Positions 1,474-14,629 of a DNA stretch of 64,000 nucleotides are shown here, piece by piece. Made by a program: the position numbers and the translations under genes. The notes beneath the pieces were generated by a model. That model was not told where the DNA came from, did no database searches, and worked only from the letters and a program-made list of their open reading frames with translations. Position 1 is the first letter of the stretch; each line of letters begins with the position of its first letter. This DNA is from Phormidium sp. FACHB-1136 (GTDB taxonomy: Bacteria; Cyanobacteriota; Cyanobacteriia; Phormidesmidales; Phormidesmidaceae), in contig NZ_JACJRS010000015.1 in the NCBI RefSeq assembly GCF_014697375.1, positions 1 to 64,000 on the forward strand, read 5' to 3'.

Positions 1474-4089
1474 CTACGTAGGCGGTGGTTGGGAGGATTG
1501 GGCGGCGGCGATCACGGCTTGGCCGAGGGAGAGCCCGCCGTCATTGGGGGGGACTTGGTGATGGGTGAGGACGGTGAGGCCAAGGGTTTGCAGGGTTTGT
1601 TTCACTTGGGCGGTGAGGATTTGATTTTGAAACACGCCGCCGGAGAGGGCAACGGTTGTTACGTGGTGACGTTGGGCCAGGTTTTGGGCCAGGGTGGATA
1701 GGGCGTTGGCGAATCCTACATGGAAACGGGCGGCGATGATTGCGGGATCCGTATTTTGCTGTAAATCCTGGAGCAGACTGGGCCACAGGGGGGCGGGGTC
1801 AAGCACTAGGGGTTGAGGGTTGAATGCGGAATCCGGCTTGTTGATCTCCAGGATCAGCGGGCGAGGAGACCTCGCCCCTACGGTATTGGGTGTGCCCTGA
1901 AGGGTGAAGGAGTAGGCGGAATCTTGGGCGGATTCGAGGTGGTGGGGTTGGATGAGGGCTTCGAGTTCGATGGCTCCTTGGCCTTCGTAGGTGGCGGTTT
2001 CGCGACAGAGGCCCACGGCGGCGGCGACGGCATCAAACAAGCGTCCGGCGGCGGAGGCCAGGGGTGCATTGAGGTTTTGGGCCAGCATGGAATCTAGCAG
2101 GGCCAGGGGTTTATTTTTGAAAAAGCGCACCAAGGCCAGTTTTGGGAAGGTTTTCTGGACGGTTTGCCAATCCCCAAAGGCTGCGACGAGGTGGGCGTAG
2201 GTGTTGCGCCAGGGTTGGCGGATGGCCTGGGTGCCGCCCAGCAGGGCCACGGGTTTGAGGTGGGCGAGGCGACGACATTGGCGATAGTCCGCCAGCAGAA
2301 ATTCGCCGCCCCAGAGCGTGCCATCGTCGCCATAGCCCAGGCCATCTAGGGCGATGCCGAGGACGGGGGGCGCTTCCAACGGCAAGCCATTATCCGCCAT
2401 GCAAGCGGCGATGTGGGCATGGTGGTGCTGCACAGTGGTGAGGGGAATGCCCTGACGCTCGGCCCAGTCTTGGCCCAGTTTGGTGGAGAGATATTCCGGG
2501 TGGGCATCCACGACGAGATGAGCGGGTTCGTATTCAAACAGGTTGAGGTAGAGATCCAGCGCCTGCCGATAGCCCTGGTAGGCCGCTGCATTTTCCAAGT
2601 CGCCCAGGTGTTGGGAGAGAATCGCCTGTCCGGGCCGCAGCAGGCAGAAGGTACTTTTGAGTTCGCCACCGAGGGCGAGAATTGGCGGCACACACTCAAA
2701 CCCAGCGGGCAACGCAATCGGCGCAGGGGCGTATCCCCTAGCCCGTCGGAGAATCTGGGGCTGGCCCTCGACGACCCGCACCACAGAATCATCCACCCGG
2801 TTCACAATGTCGCGGTTGTGCAGCAAAAAGTAGGTGGCAATGTCGCCCAACTGTTCCCGTACCGCTTCGTTGGTGATGCATTGCGGTTCGTCGGAACGGT
2901 TGCCGCTAGTCATCACAATGGGCCGATCCAACCGCTGCAAAATCAGGTGATGCAGGGGCGTGTAGGGCAGCATGACGCCGAGAGTTCCTAAGCCGGGGGA
3001 GAGGGATGGGGAGAGGGGGAGTGGGGAGTGGGGAGTGGGGAGTGGGGAGTGGGGAGTGGGGAGTGGGGTGAGGAGGACGATGGGGGCGGCAGGGCTTTGC
3101 AACAATTCGGCTTCCTGGGGGCTGATCTCGCAGTAGGGGGCGATGGCGGCGAGATCCTTCACCATGAGGGCGAAGGGTTTGTGGTAGCGGTGTTTGCGCT
3201 GGCGTAAGTTCTGGACGGCGTCATCATTAGTGGCATCGCAGGCGAGGTGAACACCGCCTAGACCTTTGATGGCAACAATTTCGCCTCGCAAAATCAGGGT
3301 AGCGACGGCTTCGGCTTCGTCAACTAAGGAGAGGGACTGGCTGCATGAAGGTTTGCCGTCGGCCCGCTCTAGCCACACCTTGGGGCCGCAGACGGGGCAG
3401 GCGGTGGGCTGGGCATGGAAGCGGCGGTTGCCCACGTCCTGGTAGTCCTGGCGGCAGGAGGGGCACATCTCAAACCAGGCCATGCTGGTGCTTTGGCGGT
3501 CGTAGGGTAGGTGGCGGATGATGCTGAGCCGGGGGCCGCAGTGGGTGCAGTTGGTGAAGGGATAGCGAAAGTAGCGGCTGCGGGGATTGAGAATATCCGC
3601 TAGACACTGGGGACAGGTGGCGGCATCGGGGGGGATTTCGGTGCGGGCGGGGGTGTGGGTGCTTTCGGCAATGGTGAAGCCTTGTTCCGTCACGGCGTCC
3701 AAGGCTAAGGAATAACGCTGAATACAGGCAATTTTGGCTAAGGGTGGCTTTTCCTTCAGTAAATTAGCCACAAACTGGTTGAGTTGGGCCTGGGTACCCG
3801 CCAGATGAATCAACACGCCTTCGCCATCGTTCAGCACATGGCCGCGTAACCCCAGTTCCACCGCCAGCCGATAGACCGTGGGCCGAAAGCCCACCCCCTG
3901 CACGGTGCCCGTCACCCGCAGCGCTTCGGCCACCTCACCATGGGTAACGTCACGCTGGAACGGCGGCAGATCGGGAAGGTGGGAGGGCGTTCCCATGGCG
4001 AAATGACCCGCTGTAGAGCAACGGGAGAGCAGTTGATCTGGGCTGTAGGAGGGCGTCATGGCAACCAATGCAACGCCTAGGGACATCAA
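1474..4089 (-). CDS. hypF: Carbamoyltransferase HypF
   Basis: HypF makes the thiocarbamate on HypE that becomes the CN ligands of NiFe hydrogenase. The 871-residue protein shows an acylphosphatase domain (VTGTVQGVGFRPTVY, about residues 58-140), two zinc-finger pairs (CPQC...CTHCGP and CPSC...CPVCGP, about 160-240), a YrdC-like domain, and a Kae1/TobZ-like C-terminal domain with the HHHAHIA metal-binding motif and ALSGGVFQN near the end. About 50 residues precede the acylphosphatase domain with no clear homology, and no strong ribosome-binding site marks any of the candidate Met starts, so the true start may be downstream (for example 3996). A Pro/His/Ser insert (PTPHSPL repeated) in the YrdC region is encoded by a 7-base tandem repeat at 3019-3067 that makes the frame dependent on copy number; the frame is open here. 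Confidence 0.93.
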   Translation of the reverse strand: MMSLGVALVAMTPSYSPDQLLSRCSTAGHFAMGTPSHLPDLPPFQRDVTHGEVAEALRVTGTVQGVGFRPTVYRLAVELGLRGHVLNDGEGVLIHLAGTQAQLNQFVANLLKEKPPLAKIACIQRYSLALDAVTEQGFTIAESTHTPARTEIPPDAATCPQCLADILNPRSRYFRYPFTNCTHCGPRLSIIRHLPYDRQSTSMAWFEMCPSCRQDYQDVGNRRFHAQPTACPVCGPKVWLERADGKPSCSQSLSLVDEAEAVATLILRGEIVAIKGLGGVHLACDATNDDAVQNLRQRKHRYHKPFALMVKDLAAIAPYCEISPQEAELLQSPAAPIVLLTPLPTPHSPLPTPHSPLPLSPSLSPGLGTLGVMLPYTPLHHLILQRLDRPIVMTSGNRSDEPQCITNEAVREQLGDIATYFLLHNRDIVNRVDDSVVRVVEGQPQILRRARGYAPAPIALPAGFECVPPILALGGELKSTFCLLRPGQAILSQHLGDLENAAAYQGYRQALDLYLNLFEYEPAHLVVDAHPEYLSTKLGQDWAERQGIPLTTVQHHHAHIAACMADNGLPLEAPPVLGIALDGLGYGDDGTLWGGEFLLADYRQCRRLAHLKPVALLGGTQAIRQPWRNTYAHLVAAFGDWQTVQKTFPKLALVRFFKNKPLALLDSMLAQNLNAPLASAAGRLFDAVAAAVGLCRETATYEGQGAIELEALIQPHHLESAQDSAYSFTLQGTPNTVGARSPRPLILEINKPDSAFNPQPLVLDPAPLWPSLLQDLQQNTDPAIIAARFHVGFANALSTLAQNLAQRHHVTTVALSGGVFQNQILTAQVKQTLQTLGLTVLTHHQVPPNDGGLSLGQAVIAAAQSSQPPPT
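3019..3067. repeat. Heptanucleotide tandem repeat inside hypF (7 copies of GAGTGGG)
   Basis: Seven perfect consecutive copies of GAGTGGG occupy 49 bases; on the coding (minus) strand the unit can be read as CCCCACT. It resembles the cyanobacterial short tandemly repeated repetitive (STRR) heptamers, whose best-known consensus is CCCCA(A/G)T, differing at one base. Because 7 is not a multiple of 3, each gain or loss of one unit shifts the hypF frame, while three units restore it and add seven residues. Confidence 0.92.
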
Positions 4090-4190
4090 GAACCAATCAC
4101 GTTCCGGCGGGAGAGAACACGATACCTATGAGGGTAAAGGGAGCGCGGGCGGTTTGGCGAAATCCCTATGGTTTTCTTTAGTGTTGACGC

Positions 4191-6404
4191 CTAGGACGGA
4201 TTCGCGACGACTTGGGCACTCAGGCGTTGGGTCATGGTTTCGGCGGGGAGGGGGCGGGCGAAGTAATAGCCCTGACCCATGGGGCAACCCATCTGGGCGA
4301 GTTGCTGCCGCTGATAGTCGGTTTCCACCCCTTCGGCCACCACCTGCATTCCCATCCCCTGGGCTAAGTTGAGGATGGCGCGGATGATCCCCAAGGCTTC
4401 GGATTGGGGATGATCGGGCTGAATTTGGCCCACAAAGGACTGATCGATCTTCAGCACGTCCACCGGAAAACGATGCAGATAGCTGAGGGAGGAATATCCG
4501 GTACCAAAGTCGTCTAGGTTCACCTGAATGCCAAGCTGCCGCAGTCCGGCCAAGACTTCAGCCGTGTGGGCGGTGTCTTCAATTAAGGCCCGTTCGGTAA
4601 TTTCCAGGTGGAGAAAGGCGGGATCGAGGGCGGTGCTCGCCAGCACTTGGTCGATGGTATTCAAGAAATCCGACCGCTGAAGTTGCTGACTGGCCACGTT
4701 CACGCTGGCATAGAGGGGCTGATCGGGAAACTGGCGGTGCCACTGCTGCAACTGATGGCAGGTGGCCCACAACACCCATTCCCCAACGGCTTGGATCAGT
4801 CCGGCTTCTTCGGCGATGGGGATAAACACCTGGGGGCTAATCATGCCCCGTTCGGGGTGGGGCCACCGGGCCAGCGCCTCTACCCCCAGCCATTGGCCCG
4901 TGGCCAGGTCTACCTGGGGTTGGTAATAGACCTGAAGTTGATCGGTTTCGATGGCCCGCCGCAGGTCGTGTTCTAGGGTGAGGCGGTGCAGCATTTCCTG
5001 ATGCATTTCCGGGTCGAAGACCTCGTAGCAGGCACGGCCCCGGCTTTTGGCCCGATACATGGCGGTGTCGGCATCCCGGAGAATTTCGGTGCCGCTTTGG
5101 TAATAGCCCGCCGACCACACAATACCGATGCTGGCGCTGATCACCACGGGCTGATTCTCCAGATGGATGGGATGGGCCAATCCGGTTTGGATGGCGGTGG
5201 CCACCTCAATGGCGCTGGTGATGTCATTGAGGTCGGGCAGCAGCAGGCCAAATTCATCGCCCCCCCAGCGGGCTAGGGTGTCGCAGGGGCGTAGGTATTG
5301 GCCGAGAATTTGGACGACGGTTTTCAGCAGATGATCGCCCGCCCCATGGCCCAGGCTGTCGTTAATCAGCTTAAAGCGGTCAATATCAATGAACAGCACC
5401 GCAAAGGAACGGGGGGTGTGCCCCTGGTGGAGGGCATAGTCTACCCGCTCCATAAACAGGGTGCGGTTGGGCAGTTGGGTGAGGTCGTCGTAGAGCGCCT
5501 GGTGGCGCAGTTGGGCCTCTACCCGCACCCGTTCGGTCACGTCCCGCGACACCGTTTGCACCTGCACCACTCGGCCCCGTTCGTTGAGGATGGGACGGGC
5601 TAGGGTCTCTAGCCAAAGCTCGTCGCCGGAGGATCGCACCGCCCGGTAGATCAACTGGGCTAGGGTTTGGGGGGGGCGCAGGGCTTGGATTTGTAGGCGC
5701 ACCCGCTCCCGGTCGTCGGGGTGGATGAAGTCGTAGAAGTTTTGCCCCGTCAGCTTGTCGGCGGTGTGACCCAGCAGGCCCAGGCAGGAAGGGCTGACGT
5801 AGATAAAATGCCCCTTCAGGTCGTGCAGGCCCACCAGGTCGCTGATGTTGTCGGCCACCAGGCGGTAGCGCATCTCCGAATCGCGCAGGTCTTTCTCGAT
5901 GCGCTTGCGTTCTTCAATTTCTTGACTGAGGATGCGGTTGGCCTGAGCCAGTTCGGCGGTACGGGTTTTTACCTGCTGTTCCAGGGTTTGGTTCATCCGC
6001 TGAATGGTGCGCTGGGCGATCTGGAGGGCCAGTTGGTTCTTCACCCGTACCAGCACCTCATCGAGTTGGAAGGGCTTGGTAATATAGTCCACGCCACCCA
6101 CCCCAAAGGCTTGCACCTTGTCGATGGAATCCCCTAGGGCGCTGAGAAAAATCACGGGGATGTCTTGGGTGGTTGGGTTTCCCTTCAGCCGCCGACACAC
6201 CTCGTAGCCGTCCATCCCTGGCATCCGAATATCCAGCAAAATTAAATCAGGGCGCTCGGCCTGGGCCACCCGCAGCGCCATGTCGCCATTAATCACCCCA
6301 CGCACATCGTAGCTCTGGGCGATAAGTGCAGTGGACAGCACCCGCAAATTCTCGGTGGTGTCATCCACAATCAGGATGATCGGATTCCCTTCCGGTTGCG
6401 TCAC
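4191..6404 (-). CDS. Response regulator with PAS, GGDEF and EAL domains (c-di-GMP turnover)
   Basis: This 737-residue protein is a receiver-controlled c-di-GMP enzyme. The receiver is about residues 8-125, with phosphoacceptor Asp58 (LILLDIRMP) and Lys110. A coiled linker of about 130-170 and a PAS domain of about 175-290 follow. The GGDEF domain is about 300-455, with an intact RWGGDEF motif at 379-385 and the inhibitory RxxD (Arg372-Asp375) five residues ahead. The EAL domain is about 470-725, with GVEALARW and DDFGTGYSS intact. Both cyclase and phosphodiesterase motifs are therefore present, and the net activity cannot be predicted. Its start lies inside the 3' end of the upstream hybrid kinase gene (44-base overlap), implying translational coupling and that it is that kinase's likely output. 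Confidence 0.93.
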
Positions 6405-8706
6405 GCCCTTGTTCTACCAGTTCGACAATTTTGTCACAACGAAAATCCTGCACCCAACGGCGCAAGGTGAGAGCCAACGGTTGATGGTCGGGGGGCAGGT
6501 CATCTAGCAGGGCATAAAGCGCTTGGCTATTGGCCACCATCGCTCCTGCATACAGCCGCTGCACCCAGTCGGCGGGGAGGGCGGTTAAATCGAGGCCAGA
6601 TGCATCGACGGATGGCGAACCGAGGGAGACGGGGGCGGCTGGAACGGTTGGCTCGGCATAGACATAGCGTACCCCAAGATGTTGTCGGATGGCCTCTAGT
6701 AGGTCGTTCTCTCGGATGGGCTTGCGGAGGAAGCCGTCGCAGCCGCTCTCTAGGGCCGTCACTTCATCTTCGTCAAAGGCACTGGCGCTAAGGGCGATCA
6801 CCACTGGCCCAGCGGCGCTCTCGGCGCTCTCGGATCGAATCTGCCAGGTGGCTTGGTAGCCGTCCATCCGGGGCATCCGGAGATCCATCAAAATCAGGTT
6901 GGGGTGCCCCTGCCGCCACTGATCTACGGCATCCTGGCCATCGCAGGCTCCCATCACCTCAAAGCCTAGGGTTTTGAGCAGGGTGAGGAGCAGCCGCCGA
7001 TTCGGTTCGTTGTCGTCGGCTACGAGGATGCGCGGCACCGCCTGATCGGGGGCCAGACCCAGCACGGCTTCGTCCCCTGGGCGCGGCTTTAGCTCCACCT
7101 GATCCACCACCGTTACGGGCAGATGCAGGACGAAGGTGCTGCCCTGGGGGCTAGTGTGGGCCAGGGTGAGGTCGCCCCCTAGGATTTGGGCAAACCGCCG
7201 ACTGAGGGCCAACCCCAGACCCGTTCCATCCTGGCGGGTGCGGCCCGTGTCGGTTTGGGAAAAGGGCTGAAATAAATCCCGGATTTGGTCGGCAGCAATG
7301 CCGGGGCCAGTGTCGCTGATGCTGAAACGTAACGTGGGAGTCTGGCTGTCCTCGGGTTTAGCCCCAGCCACCGTTAGGATCACCGTCCCGGCGGGGGTGA
7401 ACTTGAGGGCGTTGTCCAGCAGGTTGAGCAAAATTTGCTGAAGTTTACCCTGGTCGGTGCGGATGTAGGAGGGCAGATCCTCCCCCAGGTGAAAGGTGAG
7501 GCTCAGCCCCTGGGCGTTGGCCCTGGGCAACAGCATATCCACCAACTGCTGCACCAAGTCCGGCAGGCTAAAGGCACTGGCGATTAAACTCATTTGGCCT
7601 GCTTCTATTTTGGCCAAACTGAGGATGTCGTTAATCAGACTGAGCAGGTATTCGCCGCTGGAGGCGATGGTGGCGAGGTGATCTTGGGTGTCTTCGGGTA
7701 GGCGGGTGTCGCGGCGCAAAAGCTGGGCATAGCCGAGGATGGCGTTCAGGGGCGTGCGGAGTTCGTGGCTCATGTGGGCTAAAAAGTCGCTCTTGGCGCG
7801 GTTGGCCCGCTCGGCGGCATCCTTCGCCTGTTGAGCCTGATCCAACAGCCCAATTTGGTACAGCGCTAACCCCAAATGGTGAGACACCTGGGTCATCAGA
7901 TCCACGTCCTGGGCTTGCCAGCGGCGGGAGGTGGCATTGTGGTAGGCGCTCAGCAGCCCCCAGAGCTGGTCTTGCTGAAAAATGGGCACGATGGCATAGG
8001 CCCGCACCTGAAATTGCTCCAAAATGTCGATGTGGCAAGGGGTGTGGCCACTGAGGTAAATGTCATCTACGGCAAAGGTTTCCCGGTGGCGGTAGCGGCC
8101 TCCCCGGTGCTCTTGTAGGTAGGTGTCTGACCAGATGGTGCGACGGCCATCCCCCACCAGCCGGATCCAGCCCTCGGCCACAGATTCCGAGACAAAGTGA
8201 CCGCTCCAGTCCTCGGCAAACTGGTACACCGAGGTGCGATCACAGCCCAGCAGGTGCCGCAGTTCCTCGGTGGCCACAGCAAACATATCCTGGAGGTCAA
8301 AGCTTTGGCGCAGACGATCCACCAGCCGCCCTAGGGACTTTTCTCGCTCGATCTGGTGCTGAAGACGCACCTCCGCCCGTTTATAGCGGGTGATGTCGCG
8401 TCCGACGGCCTGAATTTCGATCAGTTGGCCCTGGTCGTCAAACTGGCCATGGTTGTACCACTGCTGCCACAGCACCTCGGTGTTGGGAGCCTGGATGCGG
8501 GTTTCGTGGTTAAGCTGAGCATGGTCGAGGGTGATGGTCATCACGTTCAGTTCGGGCCAGCCATCGAGACTCTGACTGAGGTGGGGAGGTTCGGTGAGAT
8601 TGGCCAGATCCACCACGTCGCAACCAAAGTATTGACCGTAGGCCTCGTTGGCATAGACCACCTGCCCACCGGGCCGAAAATGACACACTAACTCACCCCG
8701 GATCAT
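6361..8706 (-). CDS. Cyanobacteriochrome-type hybrid histidine kinase (PAS-GAF-HisKA-HATPase-REC)
   Basis: The 781-residue protein has an N-terminal PAS (about 1-110), a GAF (about 125-285), HisKA with SHELRTP (His314), an HATPase with N432, DTGPGI and GTGLGL, and a C-terminal receiver (about 558-678; Asp608, Lys662). The GAF carries features of red/green cyanobacteriochromes: Trp192-x-Asp194 (IWSDTYLQ), GGRY, AVDDIY, then Cys224-His225 in [10 protein letters not shown], the expected bilin-attachment pair, and LWGLLSAY with Tyr255. No PHY domain follows, which also fits a cyanobacteriochrome rather than a phytochrome. It has no signal peptide or membrane segment, so it is cytoplasmic. The C-terminal tail after the receiver overlaps the next gene, a REC-PAS-GGDEF-EAL protein. 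Bilin binding is inferred, not shown. Confidence 0.9.
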
Positions 8707-13336: not shown

Positions 13337-14629
13337 TCATCGGTGCATCGATCCTAGGGCCAACAGTCGTTCCAGTTTAGGTACCGTGAGCGGTAGGGAT
13401 AGCACGAGATCCACCAGGGTTGCCACGGGGGCGGTGACGGGGGGGATCTCAGGTTCCGTCAGCAGCACCAGGGTTGGGCGGGGGGTAGGCAACCGTTGAA
13501 GGTTGGCGACGAGGGCAAGATCCTCTTCCTGAGCCAGAATCACCAGCAGGTGAGGCGGCTGGGGCTGGAGGGCGGCGATGACCTCCGGCCAATCGGTCTG
13601 GCGGTTGACCTGCCAGCCGCAGAGTTGGAGGTAATTTAGCCAGGGATGGTGGCGGTCGGGGTTGGGATCGAGCATCACTAGGCTAGGGGCGTTGGTTGGG
13701 GCGCGAGGCGGCGTGGGTTCAGACGGGCGCAAGGTTTTACTGGGATGGCCATGCCTAGGCAGATACAGCAAAAATCGACTGCCTTGGTTAACCACGGATT
13801 CCACCGTGACATAGCCGCCGTGCAATTGGGCGAGTTGCTGGGTGAGGGCGAGCCCTAGTCCGGTGCCGTCGTAGCGGCGATTGAGGGTGTTATCCAGTTG
13901 GGTAAAGGGCTGAAAAAGCTGATTGAGCTTGTCCTCTGGGATGCCAATGCCCGTATCGGCCACGGCAAACTGTACTAGGTCGCCCACCCCCTGCACCGTC
14001 AGCGTCACCTGCCCCCGATCCGTAAACTTGATGGCGTTAGAGAGCAGGTTCAACAACATTTGGCGGAGACGATGCTCGTCGGCGAAGCAGTCCTGGGCTG
14101 CTGCATCCACCTGGTAGGACAGGGCGATGGGCTTGGGGGCCACCCGAGGCTCCACCATCGCCATGCAGGTTTGGCACAGGGCCGGAAGATCCACTGCCGA
14201 GAGCCGCAGGTGTTCCTGCCCCGCTTCCACCTTCGAGAGATCGAGGATGTCGCTAATCAGCGATAGAAGGTGTTCGCCACTGGCGTGGATACAGTTGAGG
14301 TATTCCAACTGCTTGGCGGTCAGCGGCCCTACCACCTGCTGGCTGAGCAGAGACGACAACCCCAAAATGGCATTGAGGGGGGTGCGCAGCTCGTGGCTCA
14401 TCATCGCCAAAAACTGGCTTTTAGCCTGACTCGCGGCCTCGGTAGCACGTTGCTGAGTCGCTAAGGCTTGATTGTCCTGCATCTGCTGGGCCACCTGGGT
14501 CGCCAACTGCTGATACTGGGCCTCCCATTCCGCGAATAGGTGCTGAAGCTGTTGAAAGGCCACTGGATCGTGGCAGAGATGGTGTAGATAGTCCAGATTG
14601 AGAGGGCACATAGCACATAGATTAGGCAA
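13337..14629 (-). CDS. Histidine kinase with degenerate C-terminal receiver-like domain
   Basis: The 430-residue protein has a coiled N-terminus (about 25-70), a HisKA domain with [15 protein letters not shown] (His79), an HATPase with NLLSNAIKFTD, DTGIGIP and GTGLGLAL, then a Pro-rich linker and a C-terminal segment (about 318-425) that resembles a receiver. Where a receiver normally has LDILLLD, this one has HLLVILAQEED with no Asp at the phosphoacceptor position, so it is probably a pseudo-receiver used for protein contacts. No sensory PAS, GAF or transmembrane domain is present, so the kinase must be cytoplasmic with an input through the N-terminus or a partner. It stands alone, with no response regulator adjacent. 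The start could be Met7, as the N-terminal CAMCPL segment is not informative. Confidence 0.88.
   Translation of the reverse strand: MPNLCAMCPLNLDYLHHLCHDPVAFQQLQHLFAEWEAQYQQLATQVAQQMQDNQALATQQRATEAASQAKSQFLAMMSHELRTPLNAILGLSSLLSQQVVGPLTAKQLEYLNCIHASGEHLLSLISDILDLSKVEAGQEHLRLSAVDLPALCQTCMAMVEPRVAPKPIALSYQVDAAAQDCFADEHRLRQMLLNLLSNAIKFTDRGQVTLTVQGVGDLVQFAVADTGIGIPEDKLNQLFQPFTQLDNTLNRRYDGTGLGLALTQQLAQLHGGYVTVESVVNQGSRFLLYLPRHGHPSKTLRPSEPTPPRAPTNAPSLVMLDPNPDRHHPWLNYLQLCGWQVNRQTDWPEVIAALQPQPPHLLVILAQEEDLALVANLQRLPTPRPTLVLLTEPEIPPVTAPVATLVDLVLSLPLTVPKLERLLALGSMHR

Follow-up and report, generated by a model that had tools for sequence, protein, structure and literature searches.

A putative red/green light-responsive two-component system for cyclic di-GMP control, encoded by two overlapping genes in Phormidium sp. 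FACHB-1136

In Anabaena PCC 7120, the hybrid kinase CdgK and the adjacent, cotranscribed REC-GGDEF response regulator CdgS form a proven pair in which the regulator Asp controls synthesis of cyclic di-GMP (c-di-GMP), and phosphate travels along a His-Asp-Hpt-Asp route (PMC9927289). A 2022 census listed only one-component proteins as light inputs to c-di-GMP in cyanobacteria (SesA-C, Cip1 and Cph2; PMC8846402), and in the open-access literature, subscription papers being outside the scope, we found no paper on control of a GGDEF/EAL regulator by a cyanobacteriochrome kinase. Here, we describe a gene pair from Phormidium sp. FACHB-1136, a filament-forming cyanobacterium of the Nodosilinea group, that likely constitutes a light-responsive two-component system controlling c-di-GMP, as judged from its domains, its residues and its relatives. 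It lies in a stretch of 64,000 nucleotides (nt), the window, which covers positions 1 to 64,000 of contig NZ_JACJRS010000015.1 (contig C57 of the 5.98-Mb assembly G000). The pair comprises a hybrid histidine kinase gene (6361..8706; 781 residues, ATG start), which carries a cyanobacteriochrome GAF domain, and a REC-PAS-GGDEF-EAL response regulator gene (4191..6404; 737 residues, GTG start); these genes, and all other features of the window given below, are on the reverse strand.

In our model, the GAF domain would bind phycocyanobilin on Cys224, with a dark state that absorbs in the red and a photoproduct that absorbs in the green; the change between the two states would alter autophosphorylation at His314, and phosphorylation of Asp58 of the regulator would then change c-di-GMP. 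By sequence, the kinase core, the receivers of both proteins, the GGDEF domain and the EAL domain all retain their catalytic residues.

The GAF domain (residues 122-293; 7828..8343) was assigned to the expanded red/green (XRG) type of cyanobacteriochromes by phmmer searches against the PDB and by a GAF tree. Its matches among solved structures are NpR6012g4 (6bhn, 2.1e-60), AnPixJg2 (3w2z, 1.4e-55) and Slr1393g3 (5dfx, 8.3e-50), to which it is 46-51% identical (51% to NpR6012g4), and an E value of about 2e-60 against solved XRG structures excludes a chance match. In the tree, the XRG rows, including that of the window, split from the CY-type GAFs with support of 100/98. The WXDXXL motif, a hallmark of the XRG lineage, typical members of which bind phycocyanobilin and switch between red and green (PMC11284453), is present as W192-S-D194-T-Y-L197 (8116..8133), as read from the residues and from the alignment. 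A preliminary description of this DNA had claimed a red/green-type bilin pocket built on W192, D194, C224, H225 and Y255, with H314 of the kinase and D58 of the regulator receiver as phosphotransfer residues, and each of these seven residues was found at the position given. The alignment of Cys224 had been set beforehand as the check that could overturn the pocket assignment: Cys224-His225 (8032..8037) aligns with C321-H322 of AnPixJg2, and Cys224 is therefore the canonical chromophore Cys, while W192, D194 and Tyr255 (7942..7944) fall on W289, D291 and Y352.

Pocket residues were taken from an alignment of approximately 80 GAF sequences, in which the window GAF has Phe, Trp, Asp, Tyr, Phe, His, Cys, His, Phe, Tyr, Ile and Tyr at AnPixJ positions 268, 289, 291, 293, 308, 318, 321, 322, 329, 334, 336 and 352. 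Among these 12 positions, only 293 differs from AnPixJg2, and Slr1393g3 shares the Tyr of the window there; both orthologues described below also match at the other 11 positions. Phe268 and Phe329 are the pair that Rockwell and Lagarias reportedly found to be required for the green photoproduct. The GAF has no second Cys, in that the position of the DXCF Cys is occupied by Tyr196 in the alignment. The domain thus holds a complete predicted XRG red/green pocket with canonical residues, which bears out the claimed pocket type at the level of sequence.

XRG domains that have lost photoconversion or gained biliverdin binding have been reported (PMC11284453, PMC7504144), raising the alternative that this GAF fold has lost useful photoconversion, or takes up a different bilin, and that the kinase senses mainly something else via its PAS domain. 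A biliverdin/far-red reading was ruled out using the concept of four biliverdin-enabling residues (PMC7504144): these residues, derived here from the 3w2z/5zoh pair, are Tyr, Thr, Tyr and Val at AnPixJ 293, 308, 318 and 336, and the window has Tyr, Phe, His and Ile, so that Tyr196 is of the biliverdin type at one of the four positions whereas the other three are of the phycocyanobilin type. With the remaining pocket residues canonical, with a GAF domain that is conserved as much as or more than the rest of the kinase (NG86 ratio of nonsynonymous to synonymous substitution rates (dN/dS) 0.10-0.17, among the most conserved kinase domains), and with pcyA present in the genome as the single bilin reductase (PcyA-like, 244 residues), we regard a loss or change of photochemistry as highly improbable and retain a red/green phycocyanobilin sensor as the predicted input.

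The GAF domain is embedded in a kinase with three further parts on which the preliminary description was silent, namely an N-terminal PAS, a C-terminal receiver and a tail domain. The PAS-like domain (residues 1-112; 8371..8706) is degenerate: the window protein itself gives no Pfam PAS match at its N-terminus, and the assignment comes from matches in the aligned parts of its homologues (PAS_4 at 7e-4 in the orthologue L097 and at 2.6e-14 in the homologue L162). The GAF domain, which Pfam also recognizes, is followed by HisKA (7597..7797; Pfam 2.1e-23), in which His314 (7765-7767) lies in the motif HMSHELRTP, by HATPase_c (7111..7455; Pfam 3.5e-26) and by the kinase's own receiver (REC; 6685..7029; Pfam Response_reg 1.8e-25) with Asp608 at 6883-6885. 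The protein ends in an unnamed four-helix domain (residues 685-781; 6364..6654), for which an AlphaFold2 model gives four helices with a predicted local distance difference test score of 75; no Pfam family matched the last 95 residues. The best Foldseek match of this tail is the RcsD Hpt 1sr2, and it is weak (E 0.31, probability 0.92, TM 0.47); an alignment of homologues contains no conserved His, and hhalign of the domain against a profile of the genome's Hpt domains, seven in number, found no link. The tail may be a docking relic. In many hybrid kinases of cyanobacteria, a domain of this type, 90-100 residues long, comes after the receiver; homologues occur in about 50 loci, aligned with window positions 6361-6669 (kinase residues about 680-781), and the type is marked by an invariant Trp and a near-invariant FRFDxI (FRCDKI in the window).

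At the output end, the regulator begins with a receiver (6042..6377; Pfam 3.8e-28) that has Asp58 at 6231-6233, followed by a PAS domain (5523..5852; PAS_3 4.1e-16, PAS_4 2.9e-15), a GGDEF domain (5034..5498; Pfam 6.6e-46) and an EAL domain (4251..4967; Pfam 1.7e-77), the last also aligned to MucR (5m3c) and MorA (4rnh). Both catalytic domains had been described as intact, the first with an inhibitory RxxD site, and on inspection they are so: GGDEF occupies residues 381-385 (5250-5264) and the inhibitory site, RPCD, residues 372-375 (5280-5291), five residues upstream, whereas the EAL domain has E509-A-L (4872-4880), the Asn of SVNVAS, LKIDQSF, the Glu of AEGVE and the Gln of GQGYYF. The whole GGDEF-EAL part can be aligned with MucR (2.4e-110) and MorA (2.5e-109), the former value excluding a chance match, and the best NCBIfam matches of the regulator are phosphodiesterases with scores under the family cut-offs. 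Composite GGDEF-EAL proteins that act as effectors or binding proteins for c-di-GMP exist, LapD being an example, and the regulator might be one of them instead of a net enzyme. Against this idea, the catalytic motifs are present in both active sites, and dN/dS values of 0.07-0.12 indicate strong purifying selection on them, making such a role the most improbable of the alternatives that we considered; both domains are predicted to be active.

The two genes overlap by 44 nt, as had been claimed and as can be read directly in the DNA (6361..6404), and a stop codon precedes the kinase ATG with no other in-frame start between the two. Full-length orthologues of both genes are present in two of 27 congeneric genomes, G016 (kinase 77% and regulator 88% identical) and G001 (66% and 74%). 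The overlap measures 44 nt in G016; in G001 it is 41 nt when the probable ATG is taken as the start, or 77 nt with the earliest start that could be used. The DNA for the shared kinase C-terminus ESDHPDCG is, read in another frame, the conserved beginning of the regulator gene. Across every domain of both genes, dN/dS is 0.07-0.34, the upper value coming from the kinase receiver in one comparison, in which it was the fastest of the kinase domains. From these comparisons, the kinase and regulator genes are inherited together. One of the orthologous loci, L002, belongs to Nodosilinea sp. P-1105.

The surroundings of the pair are not shared. The hydrogenase maturation gene hypF (1474-4089) lies directly downstream on the same strand, a nitrite/sulfite-reductase-like gene takes this place in G016 and another set of genes in G001; hypF was dropped as a candidate member of the unit, the genes 3' of the pair differing in L097 and L002. 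Because the neighboring genes differ between loci, the unit consists of the kinase and regulator genes alone. An Rfam scan of the window gave no RNA feature. A second histidine kinase (HisKA-HATPase; 13337-14629), with no recognizable sensor domain, is encoded about 5 kb from the pair.

Each half of the system is of a known kind, and the pairing of light input with second messenger recurs in other cyanobacteria. Among 390 genomes of the class, the best homologues of the kinase from beyond the genus are two, in G357 and G313, genomes of another family; they are 44-46% identical, have the same PAS-XRG-HisKA-HATPase-REC layout and are followed, 3 and 62 nt on, by REC-GGDEF-EAL genes that lack the PAS domain. 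A REC-GGDEF-EAL gene comes next at about 12 of the roughly 45 cyanobacteriochrome-hybrid-kinase loci that we read, in seven families and with the window and its orthologues included in the count, whereas the rest have other regulators next, or none; the loci were picked by kinase similarity, and this proportion is therefore a description and not a rate. Approximately unbiased (AU) tests of whether the window kinase and those of G357 and G313 have a common origin gave p-AU 0.38 for the GAF and 0.15 for the REC-tail region, values that neither reject nor demonstrate it. A module unique to this genome was thus rejected, orthologues and analogous pairs being at hand, and the system is less unusual than the preliminary description had implied. 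One further locus, L137 260-5769 (G056), encodes an ethylene-receptor-like (ETR1_N) PAS-cyanobacteriochrome hybrid kinase resembling UirS/SynEtr1 with a REC-GGDEF-EAL gene 38 nt after it; this pair is a possible link from ethylene or UV/blue light to c-di-GMP.

The relatives of the regulator point to the origin of the pair. Other members of its REC-PAS-GGDEF-EAL family stand beside dCache-HAMP kinases (L099, L118 and L184) or a multi-transmembrane kinase (L115), and in a tree of the kinase REC plus tail the window falls in a clade with the dCache-HAMP kinases L099 and L184 (support 97/86). Since the modules with which both the regulator and the REC-tail region group have relatives equipped with dCache sensors, a PAS-cyanobacteriochrome sensor, perhaps together with the kinase core, was probably grafted onto the receiver and tail of an older c-di-GMP pair, a reading that draws on one well-supported branch. 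An AU test with all paired kinases held together gave p-AU 0.37 and so did not reject that grouping. The L115 locus (2625-8043) is on contig C101 of the same genome and is itself a second hybrid kinase and REC-PAS-GGDEF-EAL pair; its sensor is multi-transmembrane, its genes overlap by 23 nt, and pairs homologous to it are found in most congeners.

Several observations weigh against our model or parts of it. Few genomes of the genus have the pair (two of 27). Trees of the HisKA-HATPase core gave no resolved position for the window kinase, and the exact breakpoint of the swap is therefore not placed. Whether the regulator acts in the direction of a diguanylate cyclase or of a phosphodiesterase is not readable from its sequence. 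The least secure step is the path of the phosphate: the kinase has its own receiver at its end and no Hpt recognizable by Pfam, all seven Hpt domains encoded in the genome lie in open reading frames (ORFs) of at least 403 residues and none in a small stand-alone ORF, and with this make-up both a four-step relay and a direct transfer are hypothetical. We rejected a relay via Hpt on these two absences together with the negative hhalign result for the tail. As the kinase has a receiver but no Hpt, and the genome's Hpt domains all sit in other large ORFs, direct transfer from His314 to Asp58 would be the preferred route, with the kinase's own receiver as a competitor.

This competitor is the basis of a further alternative, in which the light sensor is real but the overlapping regulator is not its chief target: the kinase would pass phosphate to the receiver that it carries itself, and the c-di-GMP enzyme would be governed mostly by a different kinase or by the PAS domain of the regulator. 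Asp608 of the kinase receiver is intact, the regulator does have a PAS of its own, and many cyanobacteriochrome hybrid kinases adjoin regulators of other kinds; the high dN/dS of the kinase receiver fits this alternative as well. Yet the overlap is kept in diverged orthologues, adjacency of a kinase with a REC-GGDEF-EAL gene recurs in several families, and the REC-tail region of the kinase and the regulator trace to one family of pairs, and we consider this alternative unlikely. The partner assignment of the preliminary description is accordingly strengthened in one part, by retention of the overlap and of both genes in orthologues of 66-88% identity and by the equivalent pairs in unrelated families, and complicated in another, the direct His314-to-Asp58 route, by the kinase's own receiver.

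If the two proteins do act together, the colony-level output would most simply be cellulose or extracellular matrix and motility. In Thermosynechococcus, cyanobacteriochromes act via c-di-GMP on cellulose-dependent aggregation and phototaxis (PMC9090330). The genome has a single PilZ domain, which belongs to a BcsA-like cellulose synthase (L194 2063-6495, on contig C146 of the same genome); this probable c-di-GMP effector is encoded just downstream of a likely BcsB-like gene. Because the sole PilZ is in a cellulose synthase, and given the Thermosynechococcus precedent, matrix or motility is the natural first phenotype to follow. A red/green two-component route, if true, would let light be integrated by phosphorylation and would extend the colors tied to c-di-GMP, at present chiefly blue, green and teal, to red/green, and a small soluble kinase-regulator pair would suit optogenetic control of this messenger. 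The evidence for a sensor swap bears on how ligand-sensing c-di-GMP modules can become light-sensing. We also entertain, as a doubtful generalization, a recurrent class of two-component photoreceptors that would control c-di-GMP by phosphotransfer and not by fused GGDEF/EAL domains, in which cyanobacteriochromes were swapped onto Cache-type modules, phosphate would be transferred without an Hpt, and a four-helix tail, Hpt-like and devoid of the His, would dock the regulator.

Compared with known systems, the sensor is a typical XRG cyanobacteriochrome: the GAFs of NpR6012g4, AnPixJg2 and Slr1393g3 share with it the whole chromophore pocket, the WXDXXL motif and the Cys-His. Slr1393 is also a histidine kinase like the window protein, whereas NpR6012 and AnPixJ are transducers of the methyl-accepting chemotaxis type, in contrast to a hybrid kinase beside a c-di-GMP regulator. 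SesA, SesB and SesC of Thermosynechococcus and Cph2 and Cip1 of Synechocystis resemble the pair in that a cyanobacteriochrome or phytochrome GAF controls c-di-GMP (PMC8846402, PMC9090330), but their sensors are fused to GGDEF/EAL domains; in the window, the GAF and GGDEF-EAL are on separate genes, the signal would have to cross by phosphotransfer, and the predicted colors are red/green instead of blue/green/teal. The dCache-HAMP kinase pairs L099 and L184 have the closest REC-PAS-GGDEF-EAL regulators outside the genus (52-53% identity) and share the kinase REC, the tail domain and overlapping genes; they differ in having an extracellular ligand sensor where the window pair has a light sensor. 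Finally, CdgK-CdgS likewise places a hybrid kinase directly upstream of a REC-GGDEF regulator, the window genes overlapping by their 44 nt. CdgK, a membrane-bound protein with no confirmed light signal, contains a CHASE domain, five PAS domains, a GAF domain, two receivers and an Hpt, while the window encodes a soluble PAS-cyanobacteriochrome kinase, not classed as a CdgK orthologue because it has no Hpt, and a regulator that has PAS and EAL domains in addition.

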